A stretch of 54,855 bases of DNA from Bryobacterales bacterium (GTDB lineage Bacteria; Acidobacteriota; Terriglobia; Bryobacterales; Bryobacteraceae): the NCBI GenBank assembly GCA_025463005.1, contig JAOAPR010000216.1, positions 1 through 54,855 of the forward strand. Reading direction: 5' to 3'. Position 1 is the first letter of the stretch; every line of letters starts with the position of its first letter. The notes under the pieces were generated by a model. That model was not told the DNA's origin. It made no database searches and saw only the letters and a program-made list of their open reading frames with translations. This document shows positions 11,112 through 24,349 of this stretch, piece after piece. The translations under genes were made by a program, and so were the position numbers.

Positions 11112-12164
11112 ATGAATCTAAAGATACTGTTGTTGCCCGGCGACGGGATCGGAACAGAAGTAACCGCTGCGGCGGTAGACGTACTGAAAACGGTCGGCAA
11201 GAAATTCGGCCACACTTTGGAACTGTCCGAAGGACTACTTGGCGGCGTAGCCATACATAAGACTGGCACGCCGTTTCCCAAGGACACTGAGGAGCTTTGC
11301 CTCAAGGCCGACGCCACCCTGATGGGCGCGGTGGGACTGCCCGAGTTTGATACCGCCCCGCCCAGCCAGCGTCCCGAGGCAGGACTGCTCGGCATCCGCC
11401 GTGTGCTGGACGTGTTCGCGAACTTGCGTCCGGTGCGCACGTGGAAGGCGCTGGTGGATTCCTCGCCTCTTAAGAATCACGTCGTCGAAGGCACGGACAT
11501 GATCATCGTCCGCGAGCTGACTGGCGGGCTGTATTATGGCCAGCCGCGCGGGATCGAGAACGATCGCGCATTCAACACCATGTCCTACACGCGCCAGGAA
11601 GTGGAGCGCGTCACGCACACAGCGTTCAAGCTGGCCGGGAATCGTCGCAAGAAGGTCACCAGCGTCGACAAATCCAACGTGCTGGAGGTTTCGCAATTCT
11701 GGCGAAAGGTCGTGGTGGATGTCGCCCAGCAATATCCCGACATTCAGCTCGAGCACATGCTGGTGGACAACGCCGCCATGCAGATGGTGCTGAACCCCCG
11801 GCAGTTCGACGTGATGCTGACCGAAAATACCTTCGGCGATATCCTGAGTGATGTAGGCGGGATTCTGGCCGGGTCGATCGGTATGCTGCCTTCGGCCTCG
11901 CTGGGTATGAAAAAAGGATTGTACGAGCCGGTGCACGGGTCGGCGCCGGACATCGCGGGCCAGAACAAGGCTAATCCGCTGGGGGCGATCGGCAGCGTGG
12001 CAGCTATGCTCGAATATACATTCGGGTTGAATAAGGAAGCCGCCGCGGTGAACGACGCGATCGGCAAAGTGCTCGAATCCGGCCGCGTGACAGCCGATCT
12101 GAGGCCGAAAGGTTCGCCTGCGACAACGCAAGAAGTAGGCAAAGCAGTAAGCGAGGCAATATGA
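11112..12164 (+). CDS. leuB: 3-isopropylmalate dehydrogenase
   Basis: A 350-residue NAD-dependent beta-decarboxylating dehydrogenase (3-isopropylmalate to 2-ketoisocaproate). Blocks: [11 protein letters not shown] at the N-terminus, the substrate-arginine region [48 protein letters not shown] with the catalytic Lys, and the metal site [19 protein letters not shown] followed by [18 protein letters not shown]. The length is standard. No clear ribosome site precedes the ATG at 11112, which may depend on reinitiation after leuA. The stop overlaps the leuC ATG by four bases. Confidence 0.96.
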
Positions 12165-13564
12165 AACCACGTACGATTGTCGAGAAAATCTGGGATAGCC
12201 ACGTTGTGGCTGAGAAGCCGGGAGCCCCCGCGCTGCTCTACATCGATCTGCATCTCACGCATGAGGTGACGTCGCCCCAGGCCTTTTCGACCTTGCGCGA
12301 ACGCGGCCTGAAAGTTCGGCGTCCGGATCTGACCATCGGGACTATGGATCACAGCACCCCCACCACATCGCGCGATCTGCCAATGCTCGATCCCATCGGC
12401 AAGGCGCAACTGGATCAGATGACCCAGAACTGCAAGGATTTCGGCATCCGCCTCTACGATCTGAAAACCACCAAGCAGGGCATCGTGCACGTGATTGGTC
12501 CCGAGCAGGGACTCACCCAGCCCGGCATGACCATCGTCTGTGGCGACAGCCACACAGCGACACACGGAGCTTTCGGCGCACTGGCTTTCGGCATCGGAAC
12601 CAGCCAAGTGGGGCACGTATTCGCGACGCAGTGCCTGCTGCAGACACCCTCGAAGTCCTACGCGATCCGCGTAGAGGGCGCTCTCAAGCCGGGTGTATCC
12701 GCCAAGGACATTATTCTGGCGGTGATCGCGCGGATCGGTATCGGCGGCGGCACCGGAACGGTGTTCGAATATCTGGGATCCACCATCCGCTCGCTCTCCA
12801 TGGAAGAGCGCATGACCATCTGCAACATGTCGATCGAAGGCGGCGCTCGCGCAGGTCTGGTCGCACCCGACGACACGACGTATCAGTACATCTCCGGCCG
12901 CGAATTCGCCCCTAAGGGCGCTGATTGGGACGCGGCGCTGGCACGGTGGAAACAGCTCCCGACCGATCAAGGCGCGCAATACGCGAAGGAACTCACGCTC
13001 GACGCAGGGGCGCTCGAGCCCATGGTCACGTTCGGCACGAATCCCGGCATGGGCATTCCGATCTCGGGCGCGATTCCCGATCCGGCGTCAGTATCCGACC
13101 CGATCGAGAAATCGGATTTGATCAAAGCCCTGAAGTATATGGATCTCGAGCCCGGCAAGCTCCTGCAAGGGCACAAGATCGACGTCGTGTTCGTGGGGAG
13201 CTGCACTAACTCCCGCATTTCCGATCTGCGCGCGGCCGCGAGCGTCATGAAAGGCCGCAAGGTGAATCCCAAGGTTCGGATGCTGGTAGTGCCGGGCTCC
13301 ATGCAAGTGAAGAAGCAGGCCGAAGCCGAAGGCCTGGACAAAATTTTCCGCGACGCCGGCGCTGATTTCCGCGAGGCCGGCTGCTCCATGTGCCTGGCGA
13401 TGAATGGCGATCAGCTCGAGCCCGGCGAGTACAGCGTCTCGACCAGCAATCGCAACTTCGAAGGCCGGCAGGGCAAGGGCGGACGAACGTTCCTGGCCAG
13501 CCCGCTGACGGCTGCGGCATCGGCAGTCACCGGTATGGTGACGGATGTGAGGACGTTGTTATAA
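12161..13564 (+). CDS. leuC: 3-isopropylmalate dehydratase large subunit
   Basis: A 467-residue aconitase-family subunit that, with LeuD, isomerises 2-isopropylmalate to 3-isopropylmalate. The three 4Fe-4S ligands are present at C348 (GSCTNSR), C408 and C411 (GCSMC), the same positions as in the enterobacterial enzyme. Other blocks: [22 protein letters not shown] and [20 protein letters not shown]. Its ATGA overlap with leuB and the ten-base gap to leuD mark a tightly coupled operon. Confidence 0.97.
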
Positions 13565-13573
13565 GAGGACGTC

Positions 13574-14167
13574 ATGAAATTTGAAAAAATCGAAAGCAAG
13601 ATCGCGGTTCTGCCTGTCGACAACATCGATACTGATCAGATCATTCCCGCTCGGTATCTCAAGTCGATTTCGAAAGACGGCCTGGGCGAGGGACTGTTCC
13701 GCGACTGGCGCCTCAACTCCGATGGAACGCCCAAAGCAGATTTCGTGCTGAACAAGCCCGAAGCCAAGGGCGCCGAGATCCTGGTGACGGGCGATAACTT
13801 CGGCTGCGGCAGCTCGCGCGAGCACGCTCCGTGGGCGCTGGTGCAATCCGGAATTCGCGCCGTCATCAGCACGTCCTTCGCGGATATATTCAAGGGCAAC
13901 GCCCTCAAGAACCAGCTTCTGCCGGTGGTGGTTCCTGCCGACGCCCATGCCGAGCTGTTGAAATCACCATGGGCAGTAGTGAAGATTGACCTGTCCGCCC
14001 AGACCGTCACGCTTCCCAGCGGACGCCTCGTCGAGTTTCCGATCGACAGCTTCGCCAAGCAGTGTTTACTCGAAGGCGTCGACGAGCTGGGTTACATGCT
14101 GCAGCAGGACGCGGCGATCGCGGCGTTCGAGGCCAAGCGAGTGGGTTCCGTGGACACATTGAGGTAA
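13574..14167 (+). CDS. leuD: 3-isopropylmalate dehydratase small subunit
   Basis: A 197-residue swivel-domain subunit pairing with LeuC. Recognised by [35 protein letters not shown] (substrate-phosphate-like loop) and [18 protein letters not shown]. Length equals the bacterial LeuD norm. An AGAGGA ribosome site precedes the ATG. It is the last biosynthetic gene of the operon; a conserved small gene follows 32 bases later and may be read on the same transcript. Confidence 0.96.
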
Positions 14168-14199
14168 CATTGCAGGAGTCCCGAGGGAGGGACCGATCC

Positions 14200-14517
14200 A
14201 TGCGAATGTTACTGAGGGCCATCATACCGAACGAGACAGCCAACGCCGCCGTTCGAAACGGAACTTTAGGATCGACGATACAGAAGATCCTGGCCGATCT
14301 CAAGCCGGAAGCGGCCTATTTCGTCGCCAGCGATAGCGGCGAGCGGTGTGCCGTCGTCGTGTTCGATATGAAGGATTCCTCGGAACTTCCGAGAGTCGCG
14401 GAACCATGGTTCCTGGCGTTCAACGCACAGGTTACGGTAAGGCCGACCATGAATTCGCAGGATCTTGCTGCTGCGGGGCCTGGATTCGAGCGAGCTATCA
14501 AAGAGTTTGGCAAGTAG
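14200..14517 (+). CDS. Conserved hypothetical protein of 105 residues
   Basis: I do not recognise a named domain. The product is a compact alpha/beta protein without signal or membrane segment: MRMLLRAIIPNETANAAVR, a central strand KPEAAYFVASDSGER followed by a hydrophobic strand VVVFDMKDSSELP, and EPWFLAFNAQVTVRP. The layout (a small ferredoxin-like alpha/beta fold with a C-terminal helix) resembles uncharacterised monooxygenase-like dimeric barrel proteins; this is a fold guess. The ATG at 14200 has a strong GGGAGGG ribosome site. The gene overlaps the beginning of the SagB-type gene and sits just behind leuD. Confidence 0.7.
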   Translation: MRMLLRAIIPNETANAAVRNGTLGSTIQKILADLKPEAAYFVASDSGERCAVVVFDMKDSSELPRVAEPWFLAFNAQVTVRPTMNSQDLAAAGPGFERAIKEFGK

Positions 14518-15943
14518 TCCATGGCGCGAATATCACGAAGCTACCAAGCACAGCGTTGAATCGTTGCGGCGAACGCCGCATGTACTCGATTGGGCGAACA
14601 TGCCCGATCCGTTCCGTCATTACGAGGGCGTGCCGGTGCTCGACCTGCCCGCGGATCCGCCCGTCCCTGGCGCATCACCTGCCGCGGACGGGCCGACCTT
14701 CCTTTCGCAACTATTGTTCTATTCCGCTGCGATCAGTGCGTCCAAGCGCGTTCCGTCCACTGGATTCCAATACGCGTTGCGCGTAAATCCGTCGTCCGGA
14801 AATCTGCACCCCACCGAATTCCATTTCCTCACCCGGGGACTTACGGAGTGGCCCGACGGGCTGTACCATTACCGTCCTTCTGCGCACATGGCCGAGCAGC
14901 GCGCGCTGGGCGATTTTCATCTCGCCGGCAGCTCTGCCCCTATCGTGTTCGTCTTGACCAGCATTGCCTGGCGCGAGGCGTGGAAGTATCGCGACCGCGC
15001 CTATCGATACTGCCTGCACGACATCGGGCACGCCAGGCAGGCTCTCGCGCTTGCGGCCCGAGCTATCGGATGCGAGACCTTCGCGGCCGGTCAATTCCAG
15101 GATGATGAAATCGCGCAGGCTTTTCGCCTTAGCGAAGACGAGTGGCCGATGCTTATCGTCGAAATAGGAGACGGACCTATTCCCGTGCGCGAGCCCGACG
15201 CTCGTGAGATTGCCTGGTTCGGCGGACACCCGAATCGGCTCTCCGAAGAAAAAATCGCTTACCCTCGGATTGACGCAATTCACGCAGCGACGAAAGTGAG
15301 CCATCTGGCAGTCGTCGAACCGGCCCCGTCCGGATCCGGCGAGATCAAGCTGCCCCCGCCAGCTCCATACATCCGAGCCTTCAGCGAGGTCGCCCGAACA
15401 CGGCGTTCGGCACTCGACTTTCAGGGTGGCATGCAATCGATGTCGTTGCCGCAGCTCTCCGCCATCCTCGGTGCGGCCACCCAGCAGCCGTTTTCTGCCG
15501 ATTTCGCCGGTACACGTTTCATCCAACTCTATTTGTACGTTCATCGCGTCGACGGCCTCGAACCCGGCGTGTACAGGTTCTGGCCGGAGCGCGGCGAACT
15601 CGAGAAAATCAAAAGCGGCGATCAGCGCGTCGCAGCCGCGGGCCTGAGCCTCGGGCAGGATCTAGCCGGTAATGCATGCGTGGCGTTCTCCATGATCGGC
15701 GACCTCGAGCGTGCCGCCCGCGCCCATGGTGATCGTGGCTATCGCTATGTGCATTTCGAAGCAGGAGCGATCGGCCAGCGCCTGTATCTCGCCGCCGAGG
15801 CGCTAGGACTGGGAGCGACCGGTATCGGCGCATTCTACGATCAGGAGGTGCACCGTTATCTCAACGTCCAGCCCGCGCAGGGACAAGTGGTCTACCATTT
15901 CGCGATCGGTTATCCGGTTCCCGATCCTCGCCTTCAGGCATAA
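14465..15943 (+). CDS. SagB/ThcOx-type flavin oxidoreductase with two nitroreductase domains
   Basis: Up to 492 residues. The N-terminal block REYHEATKHSVESLRR, then DWANMPDPFRHY, and the flavin-site sequences SSGNLHPTEFHFL and HDIGHARQALALAARAIG identify the SagB/ThcOx dehydrogenase family; a second nitroreductase-like domain begins near residue 290 (RTRRSALDFQG, then GVYRFWPERGEL and GAIGQRLYLAAEALGLG). SagB enzymes in RiPP clusters oxidise azolines to azoles using FMN; here no cyclodehydratase or precursor gene is visible, so the substrate is open. The start is uncertain: TTG 14465 or TTG 14507, both inside the preceding gene. The 96-residue gene starts three bases after its stop. Confidence 0.82.
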   Translation: MLLRGLDSSELSKSLASSPWREYHEATKHSVESLRRTPHVLDWANMPDPFRHYEGVPVLDLPADPPVPGASPAADGPTFLSQLLFYSAAISASKRVPSTGFQYALRVNPSSGNLHPTEFHFLTRGLTEWPDGLYHYRPSAHMAEQRALGDFHLAGSSAPIVFVLTSIAWREAWKYRDRAYRYCLHDIGHARQALALAARAIGCETFAAGQFQDDEIAQAFRLSEDEWPMLIVEIGDGPIPVREPDAREIAWFGGHPNRLSEEKIAYPRIDAIHAATKVSHLAVVEPAPSGSGEIKLPPPAPYIRAFSEVARTRRSALDFQGGMQSMSLPQLSAILGAATQQPFSADFAGTRFIQLYLYVHRVDGLEPGVYRFWPERGELEKIKSGDQRVAAAGLSLGQDLAGNACVAFSMIGDLERAARAHGDRGYRYVHFEAGAIGQRLYLAAEALGLGATGIGAFYDQEVHRYLNVQPAQGQVVYHFAIGYPVPDPRLQA

Positions 15944-16380: not shown

Positions 16381-18045
16381 ATGAAACTCAAAGCTGGTCC
16401 AGAACTGCCCAAAGCGCCGACCGGCATCCAGGGCCTCGACGAAATCACCCTCGGAGGATTACCCAAAGGACGGCCCACTTTGGTGTGCGGTGGCGCCGGC
16501 TGCGGGAAAACGCTGCTCGGAGTCGAATTCCTGGTCCGCGGCGCGGTGCAATTCGATGAGCCCGGCGTCTGCATCTCATTCGAAGAAACCGTACGCGATC
16601 TGGCGATGAATGTCTCCTCGCTCGGGTTCGATCTCGAAAAGCTTCAGAGGACGAAGAAGTTAGTTATCGATCACATCTATATAGATAAGAGCGAGATCGC
16701 CGAAACCGGCGAATACGATCTGGAAGGTTTGTTCATCCGGCTGAACGCGGCCATCGATTCGATTGGCGCCAAGCGCGTTCTGCTGGACACCCCCGAGGCT
16801 CTCTTTGCCGGTCTTTCCGATACCGGCATTCTACGCTCGGAGCTGCGCCGCCTGTTCGGCTGGCTGAAGGAGAAGGGCGTAACCGCGGTGATCACGGGCG
16901 AGCGCGGCGACGGCACGCTGACGCGTCACGGTCTTGAGGAATACGTCTCTGACTGCGTGATTCTGTTGGACCATCGTGTGCCGTGGGTCGACCCGCGGTA
17001 TTTCAGGACCCGTGTGCCGGTGACGTCGCTCGCGCTTACCCACGACGCGCCCAATGAGCGCATATCGACCGGGATCCCGGAACTGGACGACATGTTCGGG
17101 GGTAAAGGCTATTTTCGCGGCAGCAGTGTGCTGGTGACCGGGACCGCCGGAACGGGAAAGACCAGCATGGGCGCGCATTTCCTCGATGCTGCGTGCCGTC
17201 GCGGTGAAAAGGCCATCTTTTTCGCGTTCGAGGAATCGCCCCAGCAAATTATGCGCAACATGCGCTCGATTGGCATCGATCTTGGCCGCTGGGTGAAGAA
17301 GGGACTGCTGCACATTCACGCTGCCAAGCCGAGCGCGTTCGGCCTGGAGATGCACCTGGTCCGGATGCACCACCTGCTGGCGGAACATAACCCCAAGGCA
17401 GTCGTTATCGATCCGATTTCCGGCCTGCTGCCGGGAGGCTCCGAGTACGACGTAACCGCGCTCGTACTTCGCATCGTCGATTTCCTGAAGCAAACCGGTG
17501 CAACGGGGTTCTTTTCGTCGCTCAGCGCTGCAGACGATCTGCAAGCGACGTCGCTCAACATCTCCTCCCTGGTAGACACCTGGATACTGCTACGGAACAT
17601 CGAATCGAATGGCGAGCGAAATCGAGTGCTGTACGTTCTGAAATCGCGCGGCATGGCCCATTCCAACCAGATCCGCGAGTTTCTGATGACCTCGGACGGC
17701 GTCCGGTTGCGTGACGTGTACCTCGGAGCGGGAGGAGTGCTGACCGGTTCGGCGCGCGTGGCCCGGGAAGCAGATGACCAGCGCCAGGAAACACAGAGGC
17801 AGCAGGAGAATAGAGAACGCCAGCTCGCCGTGAAGGTCAGCCTCCGGTCGCTGGAAGCGCAGATCGCCGCTCTCCAGGCGGAAAAGGACGCCCGCGAAAA
17901 TGAACTGGCGGCCGTGATCGGGGAAAGCGAGACGCAAAAAACGATGGTGCTCGCCGAGCAGGATGCAATTCGCCGAAGCCGCGGTATGATGATCAAGAGT
18001 CCGGGAAGAAATCAGCGGCCCAACGGCCGGGAAGGCAAAGCATGA
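16381..18045 (+). CDS. kaiC: KaiC-like double-ATPase with C-terminal coiled coil
   Basis: A 554-residue tandem RecA-type ATPase. CI: Walker A GGAGCGKT (37-44), catalytic Glu pair E68/E69. CII: Walker A GTAGTGKT (254-261), Glu pair E284/E285, and the phosphosite segment [13 protein letters not shown], where S395-S396 align with the S431-T432 autophosphorylation pair of the cyanobacterial clock protein; then [13 protein letters not shown]. Residues about 463-530 add a long charged, Gln/Glu-rich coiled coil not found in the cyanobacterial protein. Autokinase and slow ATPase activity are expected from the family. Its stop overlaps the first kaiB start in ATGA. No kaiA is visible. Confidence 0.92.
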
Positions 18046-18374
18046 AGCCCGCCAAACCCGCGAAAGCTAAGAATCGCGCAAAAATCGCCCCAACTTTGCC
18101 GCACTACGACCTCCGATTGTATGTTGCGGGTCAGACTCCGCGATCCCTGCAGGCCCTGAGCAACTTGAAGCGAATTTGCGAGGAGCATCTTACCGGCCAC
18201 TACCGCGTAGAGGTCATCGATCTCCTTAAGAAACCGCAGTTGGCGGCCGGCGATCAAATTCTGGCGATTCCCACGCTGGTGCGGGCTATTCCCAAGCCGG
18301 CGCGAAAGATTATCGGGGATCTCTCCAATACCGAACGGGTTCTGGTCGGGCTCGACCTGCGGTCGGTGGGTTAA
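18042..18374 (+). CDS. kaiB: KaiB-like protein, cyanobacterial-type
   Basis: A 110-residue thioredoxin-like/fold-switching protein that in clocks binds the KaiC CI ring. A Lys/Ala-rich leader of about 22 residues precedes the conserved core [36 protein letters not shown] and the C-terminal block [18 protein letters not shown], which is nearly identical in pattern to cyanobacterial KaiB. The ATG sits inside the kaiC stop, so stoichiometric synthesis with KaiC is likely. The next gene encodes a second, more divergent KaiB. Confidence 0.92.
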
Positions 18375-18399
18375 CAGCCGTCGCTTTTAGGAGTGCGTT

Positions 18400-18711
18400 T
18401 TGCTCAAGAAGGATTCACAGCCAAGCAGGCGGCTCAACTGGACAGGCGGTCCGCATATGTTGCGACTGTACGTTGCCGGTTCGAGCCCGCGTTCTCTTCG
18501 CGCCGTCCAGAACGTGAAGCGCGTCTGCGAATCCGAACTTGCCGGCCATTATAATTTGGAGGTAGTCGACATTTACAAGGAGCCGCACCGCGCCACGGAA
18601 GATCAGATCGTCGCGATTCCTACCCTCATCAAGCAGGCCCCGGGCCTGGTTCGCCGCATGATCGGCGATTTATCCCAAACGGCTGTCTTGCGGTACGGTC
18701 TCGGATTATAA
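18400..18711 (+). CDS. Second KaiB-like protein, divergent
   Basis: A 103-residue KaiB-fold paralogue starting at a TTG (18400) with a TAGGAG ribosome site. It keeps LRLYVAGSSPRSLRAV, EVVDIYKEPHRATEDQIVAI and PTLIKQAPGL, but the end is RMIGDLSQTAVLRYGLGL, lacking the S-x-x-E-R-V-L-I/V-G pattern of the first copy. It could be a KaiB variant or a free-standing version of the KaiB-like sensor domain that SasA kinases carry at their N-terminus: the next gene is a histidine kinase lacking that domain. The start is 25 bases after the first kaiB stop. Confidence 0.88.
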   Translation: MLKKDSQPSRRLNWTGGPHMLRLYVAGSSPRSLRAVQNVKRVCESELAGHYNLEVVDIYKEPHRATEDQIVAIPTLIKQAPGLVRRMIGDLSQTAVLRYGLGL

Positions 18712-18721
18712 GGAGCATTTT

Positions 18722-20368
18722 TTGGTCGACGGGAGCCAAGCATCGAGTCCTCAAATGGCGGAGCAGGATCCTCGCATCGAGGATTTGCTCGCCCGGCTCG
18801 CGGAAGCCGAGGAGACTATTCGAGCGATCTATTCCGGCGAGGCGGACGCCGTCGTCGTTAACGATGCCTCCGGCCCGCGAGTGTACGCTCTCGAGGGCGC
18901 CGACCATCCCTACCGGGTCATGGTCGAACAAATGCACGAGGGTACGGTAACGCTCGACTGCGACCACGTGATCCTGTATTCAAATCCGCAGTTCGTGGAG
19001 ATGATGGGCGAGGCCTTTGAGTCAGTAACGGGATCCGAGTTCGCGCGGTTTCTGCCGCCCACCGATGCCAAACTTTTCACCGCGCTGGTGGAAGCCGCGG
19101 TGGTTCGCGGTCACGGTTCGGGTGAGCTTAATGTGCGTGCCGCGGATGGCACTCTGGTTCCTGTCCGTCTGTCTGTGACGCCGCTCAACGTTGCCGGAAT
19201 GCAAAACCTGTGCCTCCTGGTCAGCGATTTACGGGAGCAGCGTCGCAACGTGGCAATACTCAAGGAAGAGAGGCTTTCGCGGCTCATTCTCGAACAGGCC
19301 GCTGAAGCCATCGTCGTAATCGACCCTGAGGGAATCATCGTCCGGCGTAGCGAGTCCACCAGACGCCTCTCCAGCGGACCCGTGCTTATGTGTCCGTTCG
19401 ATCGGGTTTTCAGTCTGACCGTGAATGGGATCCCGTTCCAGACGGAACATATTCTGGCCGCGGCGCGAGCCGGTGAAAACATCACAGGCGTTGAAGTGAA
19501 GATGGTCCATCCCGACGGGAATGTTTCAGCCCTGCTGTTCAGTGCGAGCCCATTATCGTCCGAGGGGAACGAGTCGCTGGGGTCCGTCATCACGTTGACC
19601 GACATAACAGAGCGAAAACGCGCGGAAGAGGCTCTGGCCCGTCAGGCGGACGAGCTCGCACGTTCCAATAGCGATTTGCGCCAGTTCGCTTATTCCGCCA
19701 GCCACGATCTTCGTGAACCGCTGCGCCAGCTCGCCGTCTTCAGTGAATTACTGCAGGCGAAGTATCAGGACAAGCTGGCCGACGGAGCAAGCTTGCTAAT
19801 TCAGCATGCGGTGGACTCTGCCCATCGGATGGAAGGACTGCTCAAGGATCTGCTGGCCTATACGCAAGCGGCGGACGCACCGCAAGACATTGCCGCGCCG
19901 AGCGACACTGGCGACATCGTGCGAAAGACGCTGGCCATCTTTGAGTTTCAGATCGCCGAAAGCGGCGCGCAAGTAGAGTGCGACCCACTTCCCGTGCTCG
20001 ATGTGCACGAAGTGCACCTGACCCAGCTTTTTCAGAACCTGATCGGCAATGCGCTGAAATATCGCGGTCAGGCTCCGCCGCACATTCGTATTTCCGCCGA
20101 GCGCGCCGACGGAATGTGGAAGCTGGCCGTCGCCGACAACGGGATCGGCATCGATCCGGCTTACCAGCGCCAGGTCTTCGGACTCTTTCAACGCCTGCAC
20201 GGAGGCGGCAAGTACTCGGGCACCGGAATCGGATTGGCGATCTGCCAGAAAATTGTGCAACGCTACGGCGGGCGGATCTGGGTGGAATCAGAGCCGGGTC
20301 AAGGTTCGCGATTCATCTTTATGCTGCCCGGAGAAAAACGCGGAGAGAAATCCGAAGAGAAAAAATGA
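18722..20368 (+). CDS. PAS-domain sensor histidine kinase
   Basis: A soluble 548-residue kinase with no membrane segment. Residues 13-45 form a helical lead-in; two PAS domains follow (about 62-170 and 185-298, the second ending VITLTDITERKRAEEAL). The dimerisation/H-box is FAYSASHDLREPLRQL with phospho-acceptor H328; the ATPase domain carries NLIGNALKYR, DNGIGIDPAYQ and GTGIGLAICQKIV. This is the phytochrome-like ASHDLxEPLR subfamily that usually signals to small Rcp1-type receivers; such a receiver follows directly with an ATGA overlap. Start TTG 18722 with an AAGGAG ribosome site. It stands ten bases after the second kaiB. Confidence 0.92.
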   Translation: MVDGSQASSPQMAEQDPRIEDLLARLAEAEETIRAIYSGEADAVVVNDASGPRVYALEGADHPYRVMVEQMHEGTVTLDCDHVILYSNPQFVEMMGEAFESVTGSEFARFLPPTDAKLFTALVEAAVVRGHGSGELNVRAADGTLVPVRLSVTPLNVAGMQNLCLLVSDLREQRRNVAILKEERLSRLILEQAAEAIVVIDPEGIIVRRSESTRRLSSGPVLMCPFDRVFSLTVNGIPFQTEHILAAARAGENITGVEVKMVHPDGNVSALLFSASPLSSEGNESLGSVITLTDITERKRAEEALARQADELARSNSDLRQFAYSASHDLREPLRQLAVFSELLQAKYQDKLADGASLLIQHAVDSAHRMEGLLKDLLAYTQAADAPQDIAAPSDTGDIVRKTLAIFEFQIAESGAQVECDPLPVLDVHEVHLTQLFQNLIGNALKYRGQAPPHIRISAERADGMWKLAVADNGIGIDPAYQRQVFGLFQRLHGGGKYSGTGIGLAICQKIVQRYGGRIWVESEPGQGSRFIFMLPGEKRGEKSEEKK

Positions 20369-20802
20369 TGCGGAATGCCCTTGAAGAGCTTTCGTTACTG
20401 GTAGTAGAAGACAGTCCTGCCGACGTCTTTCTGGTGAAAGAAGCCATGAAAGAGGAAGGCCTGGGCTGTTACGTGGAAGTGGCCGACGACGGAGAAACGG
20501 CTATCCAGATCCTCGATCGCGTGGACGACGGGTCCAAGAACGCACCCAATCTCCTTCTACTGGACGTGAATGTGCCTCGCCAGAACGGAACCGAAGTCTT
20601 GGAACGGATTCGCCGGAGTCCGCGCTGCGGAACAACGCCGGTCGTGATGATGAGTACGTCCGACGAGCCATCCGAACGCAAGCGCGCTTTTGAGCTGGGC
20701 GCCACCGAATATTTCCGCAAGCCGTCGACTCTGGCTGAATTTATGCAGCTGGGTAAACTTGTCCGGCGCCTGCTTGAAGAGAATCACGGCACGGCGGCGT
20801 GA
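20365..20802 (+). CDS. Stand-alone response regulator receiver (Rcp1-like)
   Basis: A 145-residue receiver domain with no output domain. The acidic pocket is E15-D16 (VVEDSPAD), the phospho-acceptor D67 (LLLLDVNVPRQNG), followed by the switch MMSTSD and the Lys of YFRKPS. The Rcp1 pattern SPADVFLVKEAM matches receivers that pair with phytochrome-type kinases. ATGATG at 20365 overlaps the kinase stop, so kinase and receiver are made together. The open frame extending to 19978 is antisense-free noise in another frame of the kinase gene. Target unknown: without a DNA-binding part it must act by protein contact or phosphotransfer. Confidence 0.92.
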   Translation: MMRNALEELSLLVVEDSPADVFLVKEAMKEEGLGCYVEVADDGETAIQILDRVDDGSKNAPNLLLLDVNVPRQNGTEVLERIRRSPRCGTTPVVMMSTSDEPSERKRAFELGATEYFRKPSTLAEFMQLGKLVRRLLEENHGTAA

Positions 20803-20822: not shown

Positions 20823-21617
20823 CTAGCCCACCAGCGGTGACTGGTAGTAATACTGGGCGCGTGCGATGATCTGATCAGCCTGTCCCGCCAGATTCTTTCT
20901 CAGCCATAGAATTATCGATTCTGCGGTCGGCATCACTGCCCAGCCGGGACGGTGGTTGGCTTTGATCAGGACCCGCAACGCCTCCGCTTTCGAACCGAGG
21001 ACCTCGTCCATCGAGCGAGTGAGCGCGGTTTCCAACGTGCCATTGGGTTGTGCTGGGACCAGATGGGTGTGCGTGCACAGCACACCGTCGAGATTGGACA
21101 CCTCGAATTCTTTTCCGAAGACGTCAATAGCGTACGCGCAGTACAAGCTGAAAGACGATTGCTCCAGGAGCTTATTCCATAGCTGTTCTAGGCGGATCGC
21201 GGCGGCGAATTGCCGCGCCTTCCAGAGGATTCCTACCATCTCCCCGTAGGCTCGCAAGCCTTCAGCGCCCATCGCCGGACCGACCTGCCGCATAGCGGCG
21301 CGTATCACGCTCTCAAAGCGCAGCCAATCCGGTTGGCCTGCGACCATGAACTGAGAGAGGGTGTGCTTGGCATCCCAGAAGATTAGCTGCTTGCTGCCCA
21401 GGAGTTCCGGAAGATCGGCGCCCAAATGATCCAGATGCTTGGAGAATAGTTCCTGATGTTCCGGCGTTGCGATAACTAATACACCCTCGCCGTGCCGCAG
21501 ACCTTCCCAAAGATAGTACCCGACGTTCTTGGTGAGAGCTACTTCGTTAGCCTCGTAAAGCTGCACAAAGTGGCCTCGGGAATGGGGTCGTTCGAGGAGT
21601 TTTTCCCAGGGTGACAC
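20823..21617 (-). CDS. MEDS-domain protein (DcmR-type sensor)
   Basis: A 264-residue soluble protein. Residues 15-175 match the MEDS domain: HFVQLYEANEVALTKNVGYYL, GEGVLVIATPEHQELF, and MRAYGEMVGILWKA-like core (LRAYGEMVGILWKARQF), ending SLYCAYAIDVF. MEDS domains are proposed to bind small hydrocarbon-derived ligands and often sit near histidine kinases. The C-terminal 70 residues (TRSMDEVLGSKAEALRVLI) have no named domain. The start is a GTG at 21617. It faces the kai cluster tail to tail, 20 bases away, and is the last of three leftward signalling genes. Confidence 0.85.
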   Translation of the reverse strand: MSPWEKLLERPHSRGHFVQLYEANEVALTKNVGYYLWEGLRHGEGVLVIATPEHQELFSKHLDHLGADLPELLGSKQLIFWDAKHTLSQFMVAGQPDWLRFESVIRAAMRQVGPAMGAEGLRAYGEMVGILWKARQFAAAIRLEQLWNKLLEQSSFSLYCAYAIDVFGKEFEVSNLDGVLCTHTHLVPAQPNGTLETALTRSMDEVLGSKAEALRVLIKANHRPGWAVMPTAESIILWLRKNLAGQADQIIARAQYYYQSPLVG

Positions 21618-21666
21618 GTGCGCTACCCGTACCTATTCTAGCGCAGGCCGTGGTCGCAGGCGTGCC

Positions 21667-22110
21667 CTAAGATTCGCTGATATTCGGCGGAAGAAAGCGT
21701 TTGATAAGCTGCCCAAGCGCCATATACGCGGCCAGGTCCTTGGGCTTTTGGAAGTACGCATCTGCGCCCAGATACTCCACTGCAGCGCGATCTGCTTCCG
21801 CCGTGGAGGAGGTCACCACGATCACCGGCGTGCGCTTACAGTGCGAGCCACTGCGAAGTTGTCGCAATATCTCAATGCCGTCAACCCTCGGCACGTTCAA
21901 GTCCAGCAGCACCAGGGCAGGACACGCAGGCTTCTCGCCGCCCGCAAGCGCTTGCAAATACAGCAGCGCGTCCTGTCCGTTTCTCACGATGCGGAGATCG
22001 ATATTCAGTCCGCTGGCTTCAATCACTTTCCTGATGACGAATACGTCGGTCTGATTGTCTTCCACCAGCAATACGGTGGGGAGCCGACCTGGTGAACCGC
22101 TCCCGGGCAA
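21667..22110 (-). CDS. Stand-alone response regulator receiver (second copy)
   Basis: A receiver of about 147 residues, paralogous in type to the one ending at 20802. Pocket VLLVEDNQTDVFVI, phospho-acceptor D70 in VLLDLNVPRVDG, switch VVTSST and Lys in YFQKPKD. No output domain. The start is uncertain: no ATG lies between the kinase stop and the receiver core; a TTG at 22110 is the best candidate, and an ATT at 22140 overlapping the kinase stop is another. It follows the GAF/PAS/GAF kinase and precedes the MEDS gene. Confidence 0.85.
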   Translation of the reverse strand: MPGSGSPGRLPTVLLVEDNQTDVFVIRKVIEASGLNIDLRIVRNGQDALLYLQALAGGEKPACPALVLLDLNVPRVDGIEILRQLRSGSHCKRTPVIVVTSSTAEADRAAVEYLGADAYFQKPKDLAAYMALGQLIKRFLPPNISES

Positions 22111-22135
22111 GTCCTCGGAGTTCGATCGTTCGCCG

Positions 22136-24349
22136 CTAATGGGTGCGCGAGGGAATCGAGAAGCAGAAGGTGGATCCTCGTCCGGGCTCAGAGTGCTCAA
22201 GCCAGATGCGGCCGCCGTATTGCTCCACCACGCGTTGACAGATCGCCAGGCCGATGCCGCTTCCCGGGTACTCGTCGCGGCCATGCAGCCGTTTAAAGAG
22301 GCCGAAAATTCGCTCGGCGTACTTCGATTCAATCCCGATGCCGTTGTCAGCCACGGAGAACACACACCAGCCGTCCCGTTCATCGGCTGTGACATGGACA
22401 CGACAAACCTCCTCACTCCGATACTTAATGGCGTTACCGATCAGGTTCTGAAAAACCTGCGCCAGCCGGCTTTCGTGAATGGCGACCATCGGCAACTTGC
22501 CCGCGGTGACGGTTGCACCCGTCTGCTCGATGGTCCCCAGCAAGCCTGTTAAAACGTTGGCGAGGACCTGCGCCGAGTCGACGTAAGGCGGAGACCCTTC
22601 CTCATATTTCGTCGCCCTGGTATACGCGAGAAGATCCTCGATCAGGACACTCATACGGTTGGAAGCGGCGAGGATGTTCGTCAGGAACATGCTGTCTTCG
22701 CCTTTAAGTTGCTGTCCCCACTCCCGTTCGATGAGCTGCGCCGAAATCGAGATGGTCCGCAGTGGCTCTTGCAAGTCGTGACTCGCTGAGTAAGCGAACA
22801 TCTCCAGGTCCTGATTGGTGCGCCGCAGTTCTTCGTTTGACCGCTTGAGTTCCGATTGGGCCCATTGCGCCTGCTCGAACAGGCGAGCATTATCCATGGC
22901 GATCGACGCTTGCGCGGCCAGGCCGGCAATTACCGCTTCGTGGGTCTCGGTGAATCTCCCGGGTGCGGAATGACCGAAGAAAAGTCCGCCCAACACTTCC
23001 CTTGACTGCGCGATGACAGGTGCAGCGAGGTAGCTGCGGACCGGCACGTGCCCTTTCGGCATGCCATGGTATGGCGGATTCTTGCCGTACCGGGGATCCT
23101 GAGTCACGTCTTCACAGCGAAAGACGGCTTCGCCACGAAAGGTTGCACCAAAGAGATCCGTGTTGCGGGGCATCGGAAAGCTCGCAAACGCTTCCCGCGG
23201 CACCCCCGAAAGCGAGTACAGCATGTAGGATTCGCCCTTCTCGTTGGTCACGTTGTGAAAGAACGCGCCGAACTCCGCTCCTACCAGCGTCGTTGCGATG
23301 TCGGTCACTTCTTGGACCAGCTTCTCAATATCCAGTTGTGCCGCCAGACGCGGAGCCACGCGATTGAGCAGCTCAGCAGTCCGGCGCGCTTCCTGCTCTC
23401 GCGAGTGGAGCAATGCACGTTCCTGCTCAGCGCGCCTGCGATCGGAAATATCGCGCGCTATCTTCGACGCCCCCACAATCTCACCCGCCGCATTGCGGAC
23501 CGGCGATACGGTGAGAGCGACATCAATGACTTGCCCGTCCTTTCTCCGCCGCCGCGTCTCATAATGCTCAACACGATCCCCCGCCTTTATCTTGGCGAGG
23601 ATTGCTGGCATCTCATCCAGGCGCTCCGGTGCCGCTAGCATAGCCACCGGTTTGCCAACCGCTTCATCAGCGGTGTAGCCAAAAAGGCGCTCCGCGCCGC
23701 TGTTCCAACTGGTGATGATTCCGTTTAAGTCTTTGCTGACGATCGCGTCGTCTGAGTTCTCCACAATCGCCGCCAGGCGCTGCTCGCTGCGAGTGCGGGC
23801 AAGCTCTGCGCGTTTGTGTTCTGTGGCTAACGCCACGTGCGCGGCGATGGCGCTTGCGATCTCGAGTTCCTCCGTCACGCATTCATGTGGCTCCGCATAG
23901 TACAGCATGAACTTGCCGAAGACACCGGCGTCAAGCGCCAGGGGCACGAATACCAGGGCGCGGATTTCTTCCCGCCGCAACACGTCCCCGTATGCAGCGA
24001 GAGCACCCTCCAGCAGGACGTCGGGCACTACGATCGGCTCCGCGGTCCGGGTTCCTCGCGGCCAGGGGCAGTGTCCCGTGACTGCCTCCTGGTATTCGGG
24101 GGACAGGCCTCGGGAAGCCTTGAAGCGGATGACACCATCCTCATCGAATAGCAGAATCGCCGCACGATCCGCTCCCGTCGCATCGAGCAAACTGGTCAGG
24201 GCGGCCTCGTATACGTCTTCTAGAGCACTAGCGCGGCTCAATGCCGCGAGGAGTTGGTATAGCGACCGGAAACGCTCCGCTCCGCTGGCCCAACCTGGCT
24301 GCGCAACGATCCCCATCGCTACAATGTTATCGCGCCCGCATAAGCACAT
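22136..24349 (-). CDS. GAF-PAS-GAF sensor histidine kinase
   Basis: A soluble 737-residue kinase. Order: GAF about 25-180 (ATGADRAAILLFDEDG), PAS 190-305 (VENSDDAIVSKDLNGIITSW), GAF 330-490 (VGAEFGAFFHNV; SYLAAPVIAQSREVLGGLFF), helical linker, H-box AYSASHDLQEPLR with H524, ATPase domain with NLIGNAIKYR, DNGIGIESKYAERIFGLF and GSGIGLAICQRVV. The last 200 residues are closely similar to the kinase at 18722-20368, so the two are paralogues of one subfamily. No haem or bilin cysteine is evident. The start may be M1 at 24349 or M12 at 24316; neither has a good ribosome site. The receiver gene follows. Confidence 0.92.
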   Translation of the reverse strand: MCLCGRDNIVAMGIVAQPGWASGAERFRSLYQLLAALSRASALEDVYEAALTSLLDATGADRAAILLFDEDGVIRFKASRGLSPEYQEAVTGHCPWPRGTRTAEPIVVPDVLLEGALAAYGDVLRREEIRALVFVPLALDAGVFGKFMLYYAEPHECVTEELEIASAIAAHVALATEHKRAELARTRSEQRLAAIVENSDDAIVSKDLNGIITSWNSGAERLFGYTADEAVGKPVAMLAAPERLDEMPAILAKIKAGDRVEHYETRRRRKDGQVIDVALTVSPVRNAAGEIVGASKIARDISDRRRAEQERALLHSREQEARRTAELLNRVAPRLAAQLDIEKLVQEVTDIATTLVGAEFGAFFHNVTNEKGESYMLYSLSGVPREAFASFPMPRNTDLFGATFRGEAVFRCEDVTQDPRYGKNPPYHGMPKGHVPVRSYLAAPVIAQSREVLGGLFFGHSAPGRFTETHEAVIAGLAAQASIAMDNARLFEQAQWAQSELKRSNEELRRTNQDLEMFAYSASHDLQEPLRTISISAQLIEREWGQQLKGEDSMFLTNILAASNRMSVLIEDLLAYTRATKYEEGSPPYVDSAQVLANVLTGLLGTIEQTGATVTAGKLPMVAIHESRLAQVFQNLIGNAIKYRSEEVCRVHVTADERDGWCVFSVADNGIGIESKYAERIFGLFKRLHGRDEYPGSGIGLAICQRVVEQYGGRIWLEHSEPGRGSTFCFSIPSRTH

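Follow-up and report, generated by a model that had tools for sequence, protein, structure and literature searches.

The kai operon of a soil acidobacterium, located in a window of 54,855 nucleotides (the whole stretch of DNA that was analysed), is reasonably likely to encode a KaiA-independent KaiBC timer of the hourglass type, driven by ATP/ADP and equipped with its own phosphorelay. Three points that bear on this were absent from the first, sequence-only reading of the DNA: the arrangement is widespread, the two KaiB proteins appear from their tree to be old paralogues, and the N-terminus of the kinase is linked to Kai genes. The last of these bears on how non-cyanobacterial KaiC timers are read out; the words ‘histidine kinase’ are absent from the main text of the Rhodobacter sphaeroides KaiBC paper (PMC10076222).

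Layout and conservation of the operon

The kai genes form five same-strand open reading frames (Table 1) which, as originally described, are joined by ATGA overlaps or short gaps: ATGA overlaps occur at two of the four junctions (kaiC/kaiB and kinase/receiver), and gaps of 25 nt (kaiB/kaiB') and 10 nt (kaiB'/kinase) at the other two. The Pfam matches of these frames and the lack of a match to KaiA (PF07688) agree with the reading of the locus as an acidobacterial signalling operon of Kai type without KaiA; PF07688 had no match anywhere in the host genome, which is 96% complete, and the Synechococcus control was positive. None of the six KaiC matches in the host genome is a second two-domain KaiC, and a search of Rfam at gathering thresholds gave no match within the window. 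We considered and rejected a common promoter or operator in front of kaiC: alignment with locus L065, the single relative tried, revealed no evident common block, and scanning for promoters and terminators gave no excess over shuffles.

Table 1. Coordinates of the kai genes (16381-20802) and of features within them.
Feature	Position	Strand	Description
kaiC	16381..18045	+	554 aa, ATG; two RecA-like domains (CI, CII), phosphosite S395/S396, C-terminal coiled-coil tail
kaiC part encoding the tail, about residues 455-554	17743..18045	+	From alignment to 8dba
kaiB	18042..18374	+	110 aa, ATG; canonical side of the KaiB tree
kaiB' (second, paralogous KaiB)	18400..18711	+	103 aa, TTG start, AGGAG upstream
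Soluble sensor kinase	18722..20368	+	548 aa, TTG; N-terminal Kai-linked segment, PAS, HisKA, HATPase_c
Kinase pre-PAS Kai-linked segment, residues 15-64	18764..18913	+	HMM match; only match in the host genome
Receiver, stand-alone, Rcp1-like, without output domain	20365..20802	+	145 aa, ATG; Response_reg

The order kaiC-kaiB-kaiB' was found in 37 of the 55 kai loci examined, across five named phyla (L064, which has no KaiB match, was omitted from this tally). Among the 33 acidobacterial KaiB loci 20 have it, as do 17 of the 22 loci from the KaiC scan. It is conserved among relatives, the nearest locus, L065, possessing the same set of five genes. Since the order recurs across phyla the grouping of the five genes is not due to chance, and the presence of the same arrangement in other phyla excludes tandem KaiB as an acidobacterial peculiarity. 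The proposal that the five genes constitute one unit is strengthened by this conserved order and by the kinase and receiver being adjacent (six loci) or fused (14 loci) in 20 of the 37 tandem-KaiB loci. Counting against a timer is the patchy occurrence of KaiB: of 396 Acidobacteriota genomes no more than 31 have one over the cut-off, and it is absent from both other same-genus genomes in the sample.

KaiC and the proposed timer

The KaiC protein matched the Pfam KaiC/ATPase model at 326 bits, and the intact double Walker sites and S395-S396 phosphosite first ascribed to it stood up to motif inspection and an alignment of 50 KaiCs. Walker A is intact in both CI (GGAGCGKT) and CII (GTAGTGKT) and both EE pairs are present, whilst column 395 is S in 47 of the 50 proteins and column 396 is S in 46 and T in four, the serines falling in the conserved phosphosite and aligning with the two adjoining serines of R. 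sphaeroides KaiC. The stretch of CI that we take to be the B-loop is well conserved across the 50 KaiCs. R. sphaeroides KaiC (8dba) is the nearest by far, at 583 bits compared with 345 for the next type, and its alignment extends as far as query residue 535, within the tail. The score against NF006799 was 646 bits (cut-off 408) and that against TIGR02655 circ_KaiC was 313 bits, under its cut-off of 546. Judged from these sequence comparisons, KaiC belongs to the KaiA-independent, coiled-coil-tailed type solved from R. sphaeroides. By a pattern-based count the tail exceeds 80 residues in 38 of the 50 aligned KaiCs; the KaiCs of tandem-KaiB loci L034, L048, L052 and L054 (482-518 aa) have no tail, which counts against the timer reading.

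The R. sphaeroides (Cereibacter) KaiBC system (KaiC 8dba/8fwi, KaiB 8fwj) resembles the host locus in the paired serines and coiled-coil tail of KaiC, in the order kaiC-kaiB-kinase, in a kinase that begins with the same pre-PAS segment and, in the available parts of PMC6627678 and PMC10076222, in having no KaiA, but it differs in having a single KaiB at the locus, an HWE-class kinase and no adjacent receiver. A kaiC-kaiB-kinase operon, no KaiA and a tailed KaiC, the marks of an R. sphaeroides-type hourglass, are all found at the host locus. The kaiC1-kaiB2-kaiB1-kaiR1 cluster of Methylobacterium (Methylorubrum) extorquens AM1 likewise has one KaiC, two KaiBs and a gene behind them, and a cluster of the host-locus make-up is already published in Methylobacterium (PMC8069551, in the portion available). 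Phosphorylation of M. extorquens KaiC1 at paired serines and the UV sensitivity of its deletion mutants, given in the same source, count in favour of the timer. Methylobacterium loci L079-L083 and L085 have tandem KaiB and a segment-bearing hybrid kinase, and differ from the host locus in that the kinase is fused to the receiver. Rhodopseudomonas palustris, which has a proto-circadian timer, shares the kaiC-kaiB-PAS kinase arrangement without KaiA but has a single KaiB (PMC4794148, available text).

From the genes, motifs, conserved order, paralogy and segment linkage, all of which are observed, we infer the biochemical steps, all of them putative. KaiC would be a two-ring ATPase and autokinase, probably joined tail to tail via the coiled coil. 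By analogy with the R. sphaeroides homologue, which needs no KaiA for its autophosphorylation and responds to ATP/ADP as a reset signal (PMC10076222, sections available), S395/S396 would be phosphorylated without KaiA and a falling ATP/ADP ratio would lead to unphosphorylated KaiC. As in the solved R. sphaeroides homologue, KaiB would bind the ADP-bound CI ring (the KaiB binding site on CI is given by PMC6769508), and KaiB' may likewise bind the CI ring, alongside KaiB or in its place, in one state of the cycle. The kinase would sense which KaiC-KaiB-KaiB' assembly is present via its N-terminal segment and PAS domain and pass phosphate to the Rcp1-like receiver, a step to which the fusions and the gene neighbourhood point, and the receiver would then work through protein contact. 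The cell would gain an energy, day-night or stress timer of the hourglass type, a free-running clock being less likely.

The operon might instead be a stress module without timing in which KaiC acts as an energy-charge switch, as the UV and temperature phenotypes of Methylobacterium would suggest, an explanation we regard as possible but doubtful. The UV sensitivity of M. extorquens kaiC1 mutants (PMC8069551, as far as the text was available) is in line with such a role, but R. palustris kaiC affects photoheterotrophic growth in 24-h cycles, with no effect when the light is constant or the cycles are short (PMC4794148, likewise in part). Because the chemistry is identical, an energy switch and an hourglass overlap.

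Kinase, receiver and the pre-PAS segment

In the kinase the Pfam architecture is PAS, HisKA and HATPase_c, with the first match beginning at residue 64, and the 145-aa receiver consists of Response_reg alone, in accord with the soluble PAS kinase and stand-alone receiver without a DNA-binding domain reported from the letters. The parallel with the KaiC-KaiB-SasA-RpaA chain drawn in the same reading did not hold in detail. The cyanobacterial KaiABC-SasA-RpaA system is alike in its homologous KaiC and KaiB and in a kinase and receiver as presumed output, but the host locus has no KaiA, its kinase lies within the operon and gave no match to a KaiB-like domain in a Pfam profile search, and its receiver, lacking the DNA-binding domain of RpaA, is not RpaA-like. 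The SasA model NF006800 matches residues 325-536 only, which is the kinase part, and the closest matches to the kinase core are 8f71 and bacteriophytochromes. The receiver most resembles 6xvu (94.4 bits) and Rcp1-type receivers (RCP1 at 58.4), RpaA being far lower at 39.7. Homology to SasA-RpaA was therefore rejected, and the R. sphaeroides kaiC-kaiB-kinase and M. extorquens kaiC1-kaiB2-kaiB1-kaiR1 loci are better comparisons.

The segment ahead of the PAS domain is present in 44 of the 46 downstream PAS/kinase effectors, as the core alone in four of the 44 (L056, L059, L060 and L063), and the outputs behind it vary between HisKA, HisKA_3, HisKA_2/HWE and GGDEF-EAL. Its absence from the other two effector ORFs directly downstream, those of Methanoperedens loci L075 and L076, counts against the linkage; both genomes have a segment-bearing kinase at most 5 kb from a KaiB. 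The kinase is not essential to the kai core, as follows from four tandem-KaiB loci with a Crp-family regulator next to kaiB' and from L039, with no recognised effector in that position, all without an adjoining segment-bearing gene. Across 396 + 19 genomes there were 43 strong matches, of which 40 have a KaiB nearby and one has a KaiC beside it, whilst two (L105 and L106) had no Kai gene within the 14-15 kb fetched and argue against the linkage. No sampled genome of the 396 + 19 without KaiB had a strong match; as a rule up to 17 first-look candidates were scored per genome in the 396-genome scan, and nearly all candidates in the host genome and in further genome searches. The segment model, A1, was built from Kai-adjacent rows, many from genomes later searched, so those rows' own matches are by construction; informative for the linkage are the lack of other strong matches and a cross-phylum test of the model, whose two misses at E <= 3e-7 were L056 and L063. 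A tblastn search of plasmids with one 50-aa segment query gave no match, which is a matter of sensitivity because the HMM matched five plasmid loci reached through KaiB.

Against solved structures the best match of the segment was 3i6v (E 0.0013), to a piece of a periplasmic binding protein. Weak matches (E 1e-9 to 1e-3) numbered 11 in the 396-genome scan, and five of these loci were fetched. Two lie near the front of large hybrid kinases, the stretch in both being taken for a binding-protein domain, and the others comprise a 347-aa ORF that looks much the same, an ordinary PAS kinase, and a kinase beside an 82-aa KaiB remnant which is probably a decayed kai locus.

Such matches bear on whether the segment is a generic dimerisation coil and strand before PAS, with the Kai link a by-product of the effectors' common descent, for which we see a minor chance. 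Its hydrophobic residues (L, L, A, L, I) are spaced much as in a heptad when judged by eye, its helix-strand piece resembles periplasmic binding proteins, and common descent of the N-terminus plus PAS is likely; however, the segment persists while the four output types swap behind it, the L063 effector retains the core though it has no PAS match, and the 365 sampled Acidobacteriota genomes without an over-cut-off KaiB contained no strong match (usually at most 17 candidates scored per genome). A more far-reaching reading, which we consider possible but less likely than not, is a modular timer with a read-out unlike SasA or CikA, in which the segment of the tandem-KaiB cassette would be a Kai docking plug for varied outputs (kinase classes and cyclic-di-GMP enzymes). 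In this reading KaiB' would be a second, dedicated fold-switching partner, entering mixed rings together with KaiB and setting when the plug engages. If the segment is a docking element, direct tests of read-out could be made in R. sphaeroides, in Methylobacterium and with the host operon, and the segment would be a sequence marker for Kai-controlled kinases and cyclic-di-GMP enzymes. Its sharing by differing downstream effectors appears new relative to the literature searched. The kaiC-kinase loci of Ramlibacter, which are without KaiB, likewise encode a family of kinases that is linked to KaiC and recognised by a particular N-terminus, RtaNt, but this is described as distantly KaiB/SasA/receiver-like and in genomes without kaiB (PMC3164672, available part).

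The second KaiB

Two distinct KaiB proteins had been proposed, and both indeed exceed the Pfam KaiB cut-off of 27 bits (93.8 for KaiB, 83.0 for KaiB') and are placed apart on the tree. KaiB lies above the NCBIfam KaiB equivalog NF006798 cut-off of 110 bits (110.3) and KaiB' below it (80.2), both are under the TIGR02654 cut-off of 145, and the R. sphaeroides protein 8fwj is the nearest structure to KaiB. In a tree restricted to the 37 KaiB pairs and two reference KaiBs, a supported branch (99/95), present in all 200 bootstrap trees checked, separates all 37 second-position KaiBs from the two canonical references; an earlier tree omitted L061 and L062 as too divergent. Recent locus-by-locus duplication was rejected for the sampled pairs, the first and second labels requiring one change on the tree. 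By this topology KaiB' is an old paralogue of KaiB, a relationship that appears new relative to the literature searched. At the site of reference L48 the second KaiBs have Y (32), H (3) or A (2) and the first mostly L, M or I, and at that of K67 K is found in 32 of 37 second KaiBs versus R in 32 of 37 first KaiBs. With a conserved second KaiB, a further partner would enter a system for which KaiB and KaiC alone are thought to suffice, though the partner of KaiB' may be something other than KaiC.

We consider it unlikely that KaiB' is an adaptor bridging the Kai complex to the kinase segment, as an unfused counterpart of the KaiB-like domain of SasA. The gene order, in which kaiB' separates kaiB from the effector and overlaps the latter by 4 nt in 11 tandem loci, would suit an adaptor, as would the near-fixed differences at the L48 and K67 sites on a single branch, but single-KaiB loci including that of R. 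sphaeroides have the segment without KaiB', the four Crp loci have KaiB' without an adjoining segment-bearing gene, and there is no KaiB-kinase fusion among the labelled ORFs.

Less probable still are mixed KaiB/KaiB' rings on CI in which a basic residue meets the partner's acidic ones, giving a cooperative switch from non-cooperative binding. In Thermosynechococcus elongatus the KaiB-KaiB contact sets R23 and K26 against E84 and D91 (PMC6769508), and R. sphaeroides KaiB makes no contact with a neighbouring KaiB (PMC10076222, in the part available), both of which count for mixed rings. A basic residue occupies position 23 in five of the 37 first KaiBs and in 30 of the 37 second ones; among the first, 36 are acidic at 84 and 28 at 91. 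A KaiB' basic at 23 is combined with a KaiB that is not basic there but is acidic at both 84 and 91 in 22 of the 37 pairs, the host pair (KaiB Q, S, E, D; KaiB' R, Q, A, G) being one of these. The case rests on single residues at positions taken from one cyanobacterial complex, however, and the remaining 15 of 37 pairs do not show this combination, whilst 12 of 37 KaiB' proteins could also pair with themselves. An ATG at 18457 is an alternative start for kaiB' that also preserves the KaiB domain.

A KaiA-less cassette of the R. sphaeroides type

The Kai cassette of the window is a real finding and belongs to the KaiA-less, R. sphaeroides-type KaiBC systems, from which it differs in having a conserved second KaiB (KaiB') and a detached receiver; the paralogy of KaiB', together with a pre-PAS N-terminal stretch of the effector (the 'Kai-linked segment'), offers testable handles on the read-out of such timers. 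Domain searches of the five proteins, all encoded on one strand, confirmed the domain content named in the sequence-only reading. The double Walker sites and S395/S396 that it had assigned to KaiC were also borne out, both Walker A motifs and both EE pairs being intact and the columns conserved among 50 aligned KaiCs, as was the absence of KaiA, since this genome of 6.36 Mb (342 contigs, completeness 96%) contains no PF07688-type KaiA match, nor a second two-domain KaiC elsewhere.

Features of the window and of other kai loci (L-numbers: fetched kai neighbourhoods of other genomes)
Feature	Locus	Position	Strand	Length	Details
kai cassette	window	16381-20802	+		five genes
kaiC	window		+	554 aa	ATGA overlap with kaiB
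kaiB	window		+	110 aa	start overlaps kaiC by ATGA
kaiB'	window		+	103 aa	TTG start preceded by AGGAG; 25 nt behind kaiB
kinase	window		+	548 aa	TTG start; 10 nt behind kaiB'
receiver	window		+	145 aa	ATGA overlap with kinase
KaiC tail	window	about 17743-18045	+
Upstream ORFs	window	12161-15943	+		two resembling leuC, leuD (from translation); SagB-family peptide dehydrogenase
Convergent genes	window	20823-24349	-		MEDS-domain (DcmR-like) protein; second stand-alone receiver; GAF-PAS-GAF HisKA kinase
Crp-family regulator	L050	5545-6231			after kaiB'
Crp-family regulator	L053	6755-7432			after kaiB'
Crp-family regulator	L057	6713-7465			after kaiB'
Crp-family regulator	L058	5538-6239			after kaiB'
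Kinase, shortened segment	L118	4650-5741	-		beside 82-aa ORF with weak partial KaiB match
Receiver/KaiB-like ORF	L061	6363-9305	-	980 aa	receiver and C-terminal KaiB-like domain; further ORF inside labelled KaiC by profile

The best solved relative of the window KaiC is R. sphaeroides KaiC (8dba, 583 bits; next type 8zn5, 345 bits), with an alignment that continues as far as residue 535, within the C-terminal tail, and the nearest solved relative of its KaiB is likewise the R. sphaeroides protein. Excerpts of PMC10076222 describe two R. sphaeroides KaiC hexamers joined by the 12-helix bundle of the tail, an extended A loop, autophosphorylation that does not require KaiA, a cycle reset by the ATP/ADP ratio, and a KaiB that binds the ADP-bound CI ring nearly regardless of phosphorylation state. 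R. sphaeroides KD131 carries its kaiC-kaiB-HWE kinase locus on a plasmid. Among loci with two adjacent KaiBs ('tandem' loci; n = 37, window included), the KaiCs of L034, L048, L052 and L054 (482-518 aa) end before the tail. The tail consensus (38 rows) terminates in a 'dR..marxRxAd' pattern, from which the window KaiC differs (AIRRSRGMM); this end pattern could be an additional contact site.

According to excerpts of earlier reports, kaiC or kaiB is directly followed by a gene for a histidine kinase or a GGDEF/EAL protein in nearly all non-cyanobacterial kaiC-kaiB clusters (PMC3164672, 2011), R. palustris has kaiC-kaiB-PAS kinase (PMC4794148), M. extorquens AM1 has kaiC1-kaiB2-kaiB1-kaiR1 (PMC8069551), and in both R. 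rubrum and R. sphaeroides PAS kinases adjoin the kai genes (PMC10931921, PMC5520375, PMC6627678); the arrangement as such is thus known. In M. extorquens, mutation of S432 and S433 removes the phosphorylated bands of KaiC1 and the kaiC1 mutant is UV-sensitive (excerpts of PMC8069551); an excerpt on a sponge microbiome confines circadian gene homologues to its cyanobacterial bin (PMC12879404). A word-matching search of openly licensed papers turned up neither a description of the second KaiB as its own subfamily nor one of a shared N-terminal segment of kai effectors.

Beside the cassette, the core of the convergent GAF-PAS-GAF HisKA kinase resembles that of the kai-linked kinase (5e-66). Neither this kinase nor the convergent receiver has a counterpart in the 3.3 kb downstream of the cassette in L065. 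This locus, from a Bryobacteraceae MAG (75% KaiC identity), is the nearest of our KaiC scan and puts the origin of the window close to Bryobacteraceae.

Gene order and paralogy of the two KaiBs

KaiB scored above the Pfam cut-off in 31 of 396 sampled Acidobacteriota genomes, in tandem by coordinates in 19 of the 31; the two further genomes of the window's own genus in this sample had none. The order kaiC-kaiB-kaiB', checked for conservation in relatives, recurs: two KaiBs were present in 20 of 33 acidobacterial loci (33 fetched neighbourhoods plus the window, minus L064, which lacks a KaiB match), with KaiC directly upstream in all 20 and upstream in 30 of the 33. A scan of named genomes, seeded by KaiC similarity and thus not a census, returned 22 loci, all with KaiC upstream and 17 with two KaiBs; by record titles its tandem loci belong to Acidobacteriota, Verrucomicrobiota, Bacteroidota, Spirochaetota, Pseudomonadota and one further bacterium, and its Methanoperedens have single KaiBs adjoining KaiC. 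Another tandem locus, on Pararhizobium plasmid p3, has a gene annotated 'response regulator' behind the KaiBs. In L107 (Methanoperedens) a tandem KaiB pair and a kaiC-kaiB pair are separated by about 8 kb that contain several kinases, one of them bearing the Kai-linked segment.

The 37 pairs were placed in a tree with 8fwj (R. sphaeroides) and 2qke, which we take to be T. elongatus KaiB. All 37 second-position KaiBs fell on one side of one branch (99/95; 200/200 bootstrap trees checked) and both references on the other, and adding 16 single KaiBs still required only one change of first/second label; the inner order is not resolved because there are only 86 columns and several long-branched rows. 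At the site of reference L48 second KaiBs have Y (32), H (3) or A (2), whilst first KaiBs most commonly have L (21), M (8) or I (4), and at K67 32/37 second KaiBs have K whereas 32/37 first KaiBs have R. On this tree, KaiB' is an old paralogue of KaiB.

Lateral KaiB-KaiB contact positions, 23, 84 and 91 among them, are described for T. elongatus in excerpts of PMC6769508, with whose numbering 2qke residues R23, K26, E84 and D91 agree. Position 23 is basic in 30/37 KaiB' proteins vs 5/37 KaiBs, and the first KaiB is acidic at 84 in 36/37 and at 91 in 28/37. Charge-complementary pairs, with KaiB' basic at 23 and its KaiB not basic there and acidic at 84 and 91, number 22/37 and include that of the window. 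This complementarity of contact residues suggests that KaiB and KaiB' may form mixed rings.

The Kai-linked segment of effectors

A PAS or kinase ORF lies directly downstream of the last KaiB in 46/55 loci, and 44 of these 46 effectors start with the segment L..RL.EAEETL.AIR.GEVDALVV.G..G..VYTL.GAD, reduced to its core (AL..G..DAVV) in L056, L059, L060 and L063. In the window's kinase it spans residues 15-64 and the first Pfam match begins at its end; in L063, where no PAS is matched, a HisKA_2 kinase follows the core at once. The part behind the segment varies among the 44 effectors: HisKA is matched in 23, HisKA_3 in 9, HisKA_2 in 4 and HWE in 4 (overlapping), GGDEF together with EAL in three, and a receiver is present in 16.

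Using a model built from 31 Kai-adjacent segments, 22 strong matches (E < 1e-15) were found in the 396 Acidobacteriota genomes, none in a genome without KaiB. Twenty adjoin KaiB, one adjoins KaiC at a contig end (G242:C23), and one (G062:C220) has no Kai gene within the 15 kb fetched. Within the genome of the window, nothing but the kinase matched (all 94 candidates scored). For 19 of the 22 KaiC-scan loci the source genomes, 19 in all, gave 21 strong matches (E <= 1.4e-13), 20 within 5 kb of KaiB, the lone exception lying in Methanoperedens.

As the model derives from Kai-adjacent rows, it was tested across phyla: with a model of the nine rows not assigned to Acidobacteriota searched against 2340 ORFs, 26 of 28 Kai-adjacent acidobacterial effectors took ranks 1-26 (E <= 3e-7), the best other ORF reaching E 2.8e-4 despite 23 other PAS or kinase ORFs present. 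Eight of 18 KaiB-bearing plasmid records (nine of the 18 R. sphaeroides) were also taken, their loci being in no model; five had the segment, including R. sphaeroides (E 9e-17), in the order kaiC-kaiB-kinase or kaiC-kaiB-kaiB'-kinase, and the three without it (two Hymenobacter, one Aquisphaera) also lack that order. Locus L118, with its shortened segment, is probably a decaying kai locus.

Output of the cassette

The parallel with cyanobacterial SasA-RpaA drawn in the sequence-only reading proved loose: the closest matches of the kinase core are 8f71 and bacteriophytochromes, and those of the receiver are 6xvu (entry titled 'Response regulator'; presumably the partner of the D. radiodurans phytochrome) and Rcp1-type receivers, a class in which an output domain is usually absent. 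A separate receiver follows the kinase in 6/37 tandem loci (window, L065, L070, L072, L078 and L043, where it carries a LuxR output domain) and is fused to it in 14/37, of which the distance tally shows 12, missing L071 and L081 (ORF calls too long at the front). The other 17 comprise ten with a kinase and no receiver in reach, a GGDEF-EAL protein (L074), no recognised effector (L039), a contig end inside the effector (L069), and four acidobacterial loci in which a Crp/Fnr-type regulator replaces the kinase directly after kaiB', a possible direct route from Kai to transcription. In both L043 and L049 a LuxR-type regulator lies behind the HisKA_3 kinase. A single ORF in L061 joins a receiver to a KaiB-like domain.
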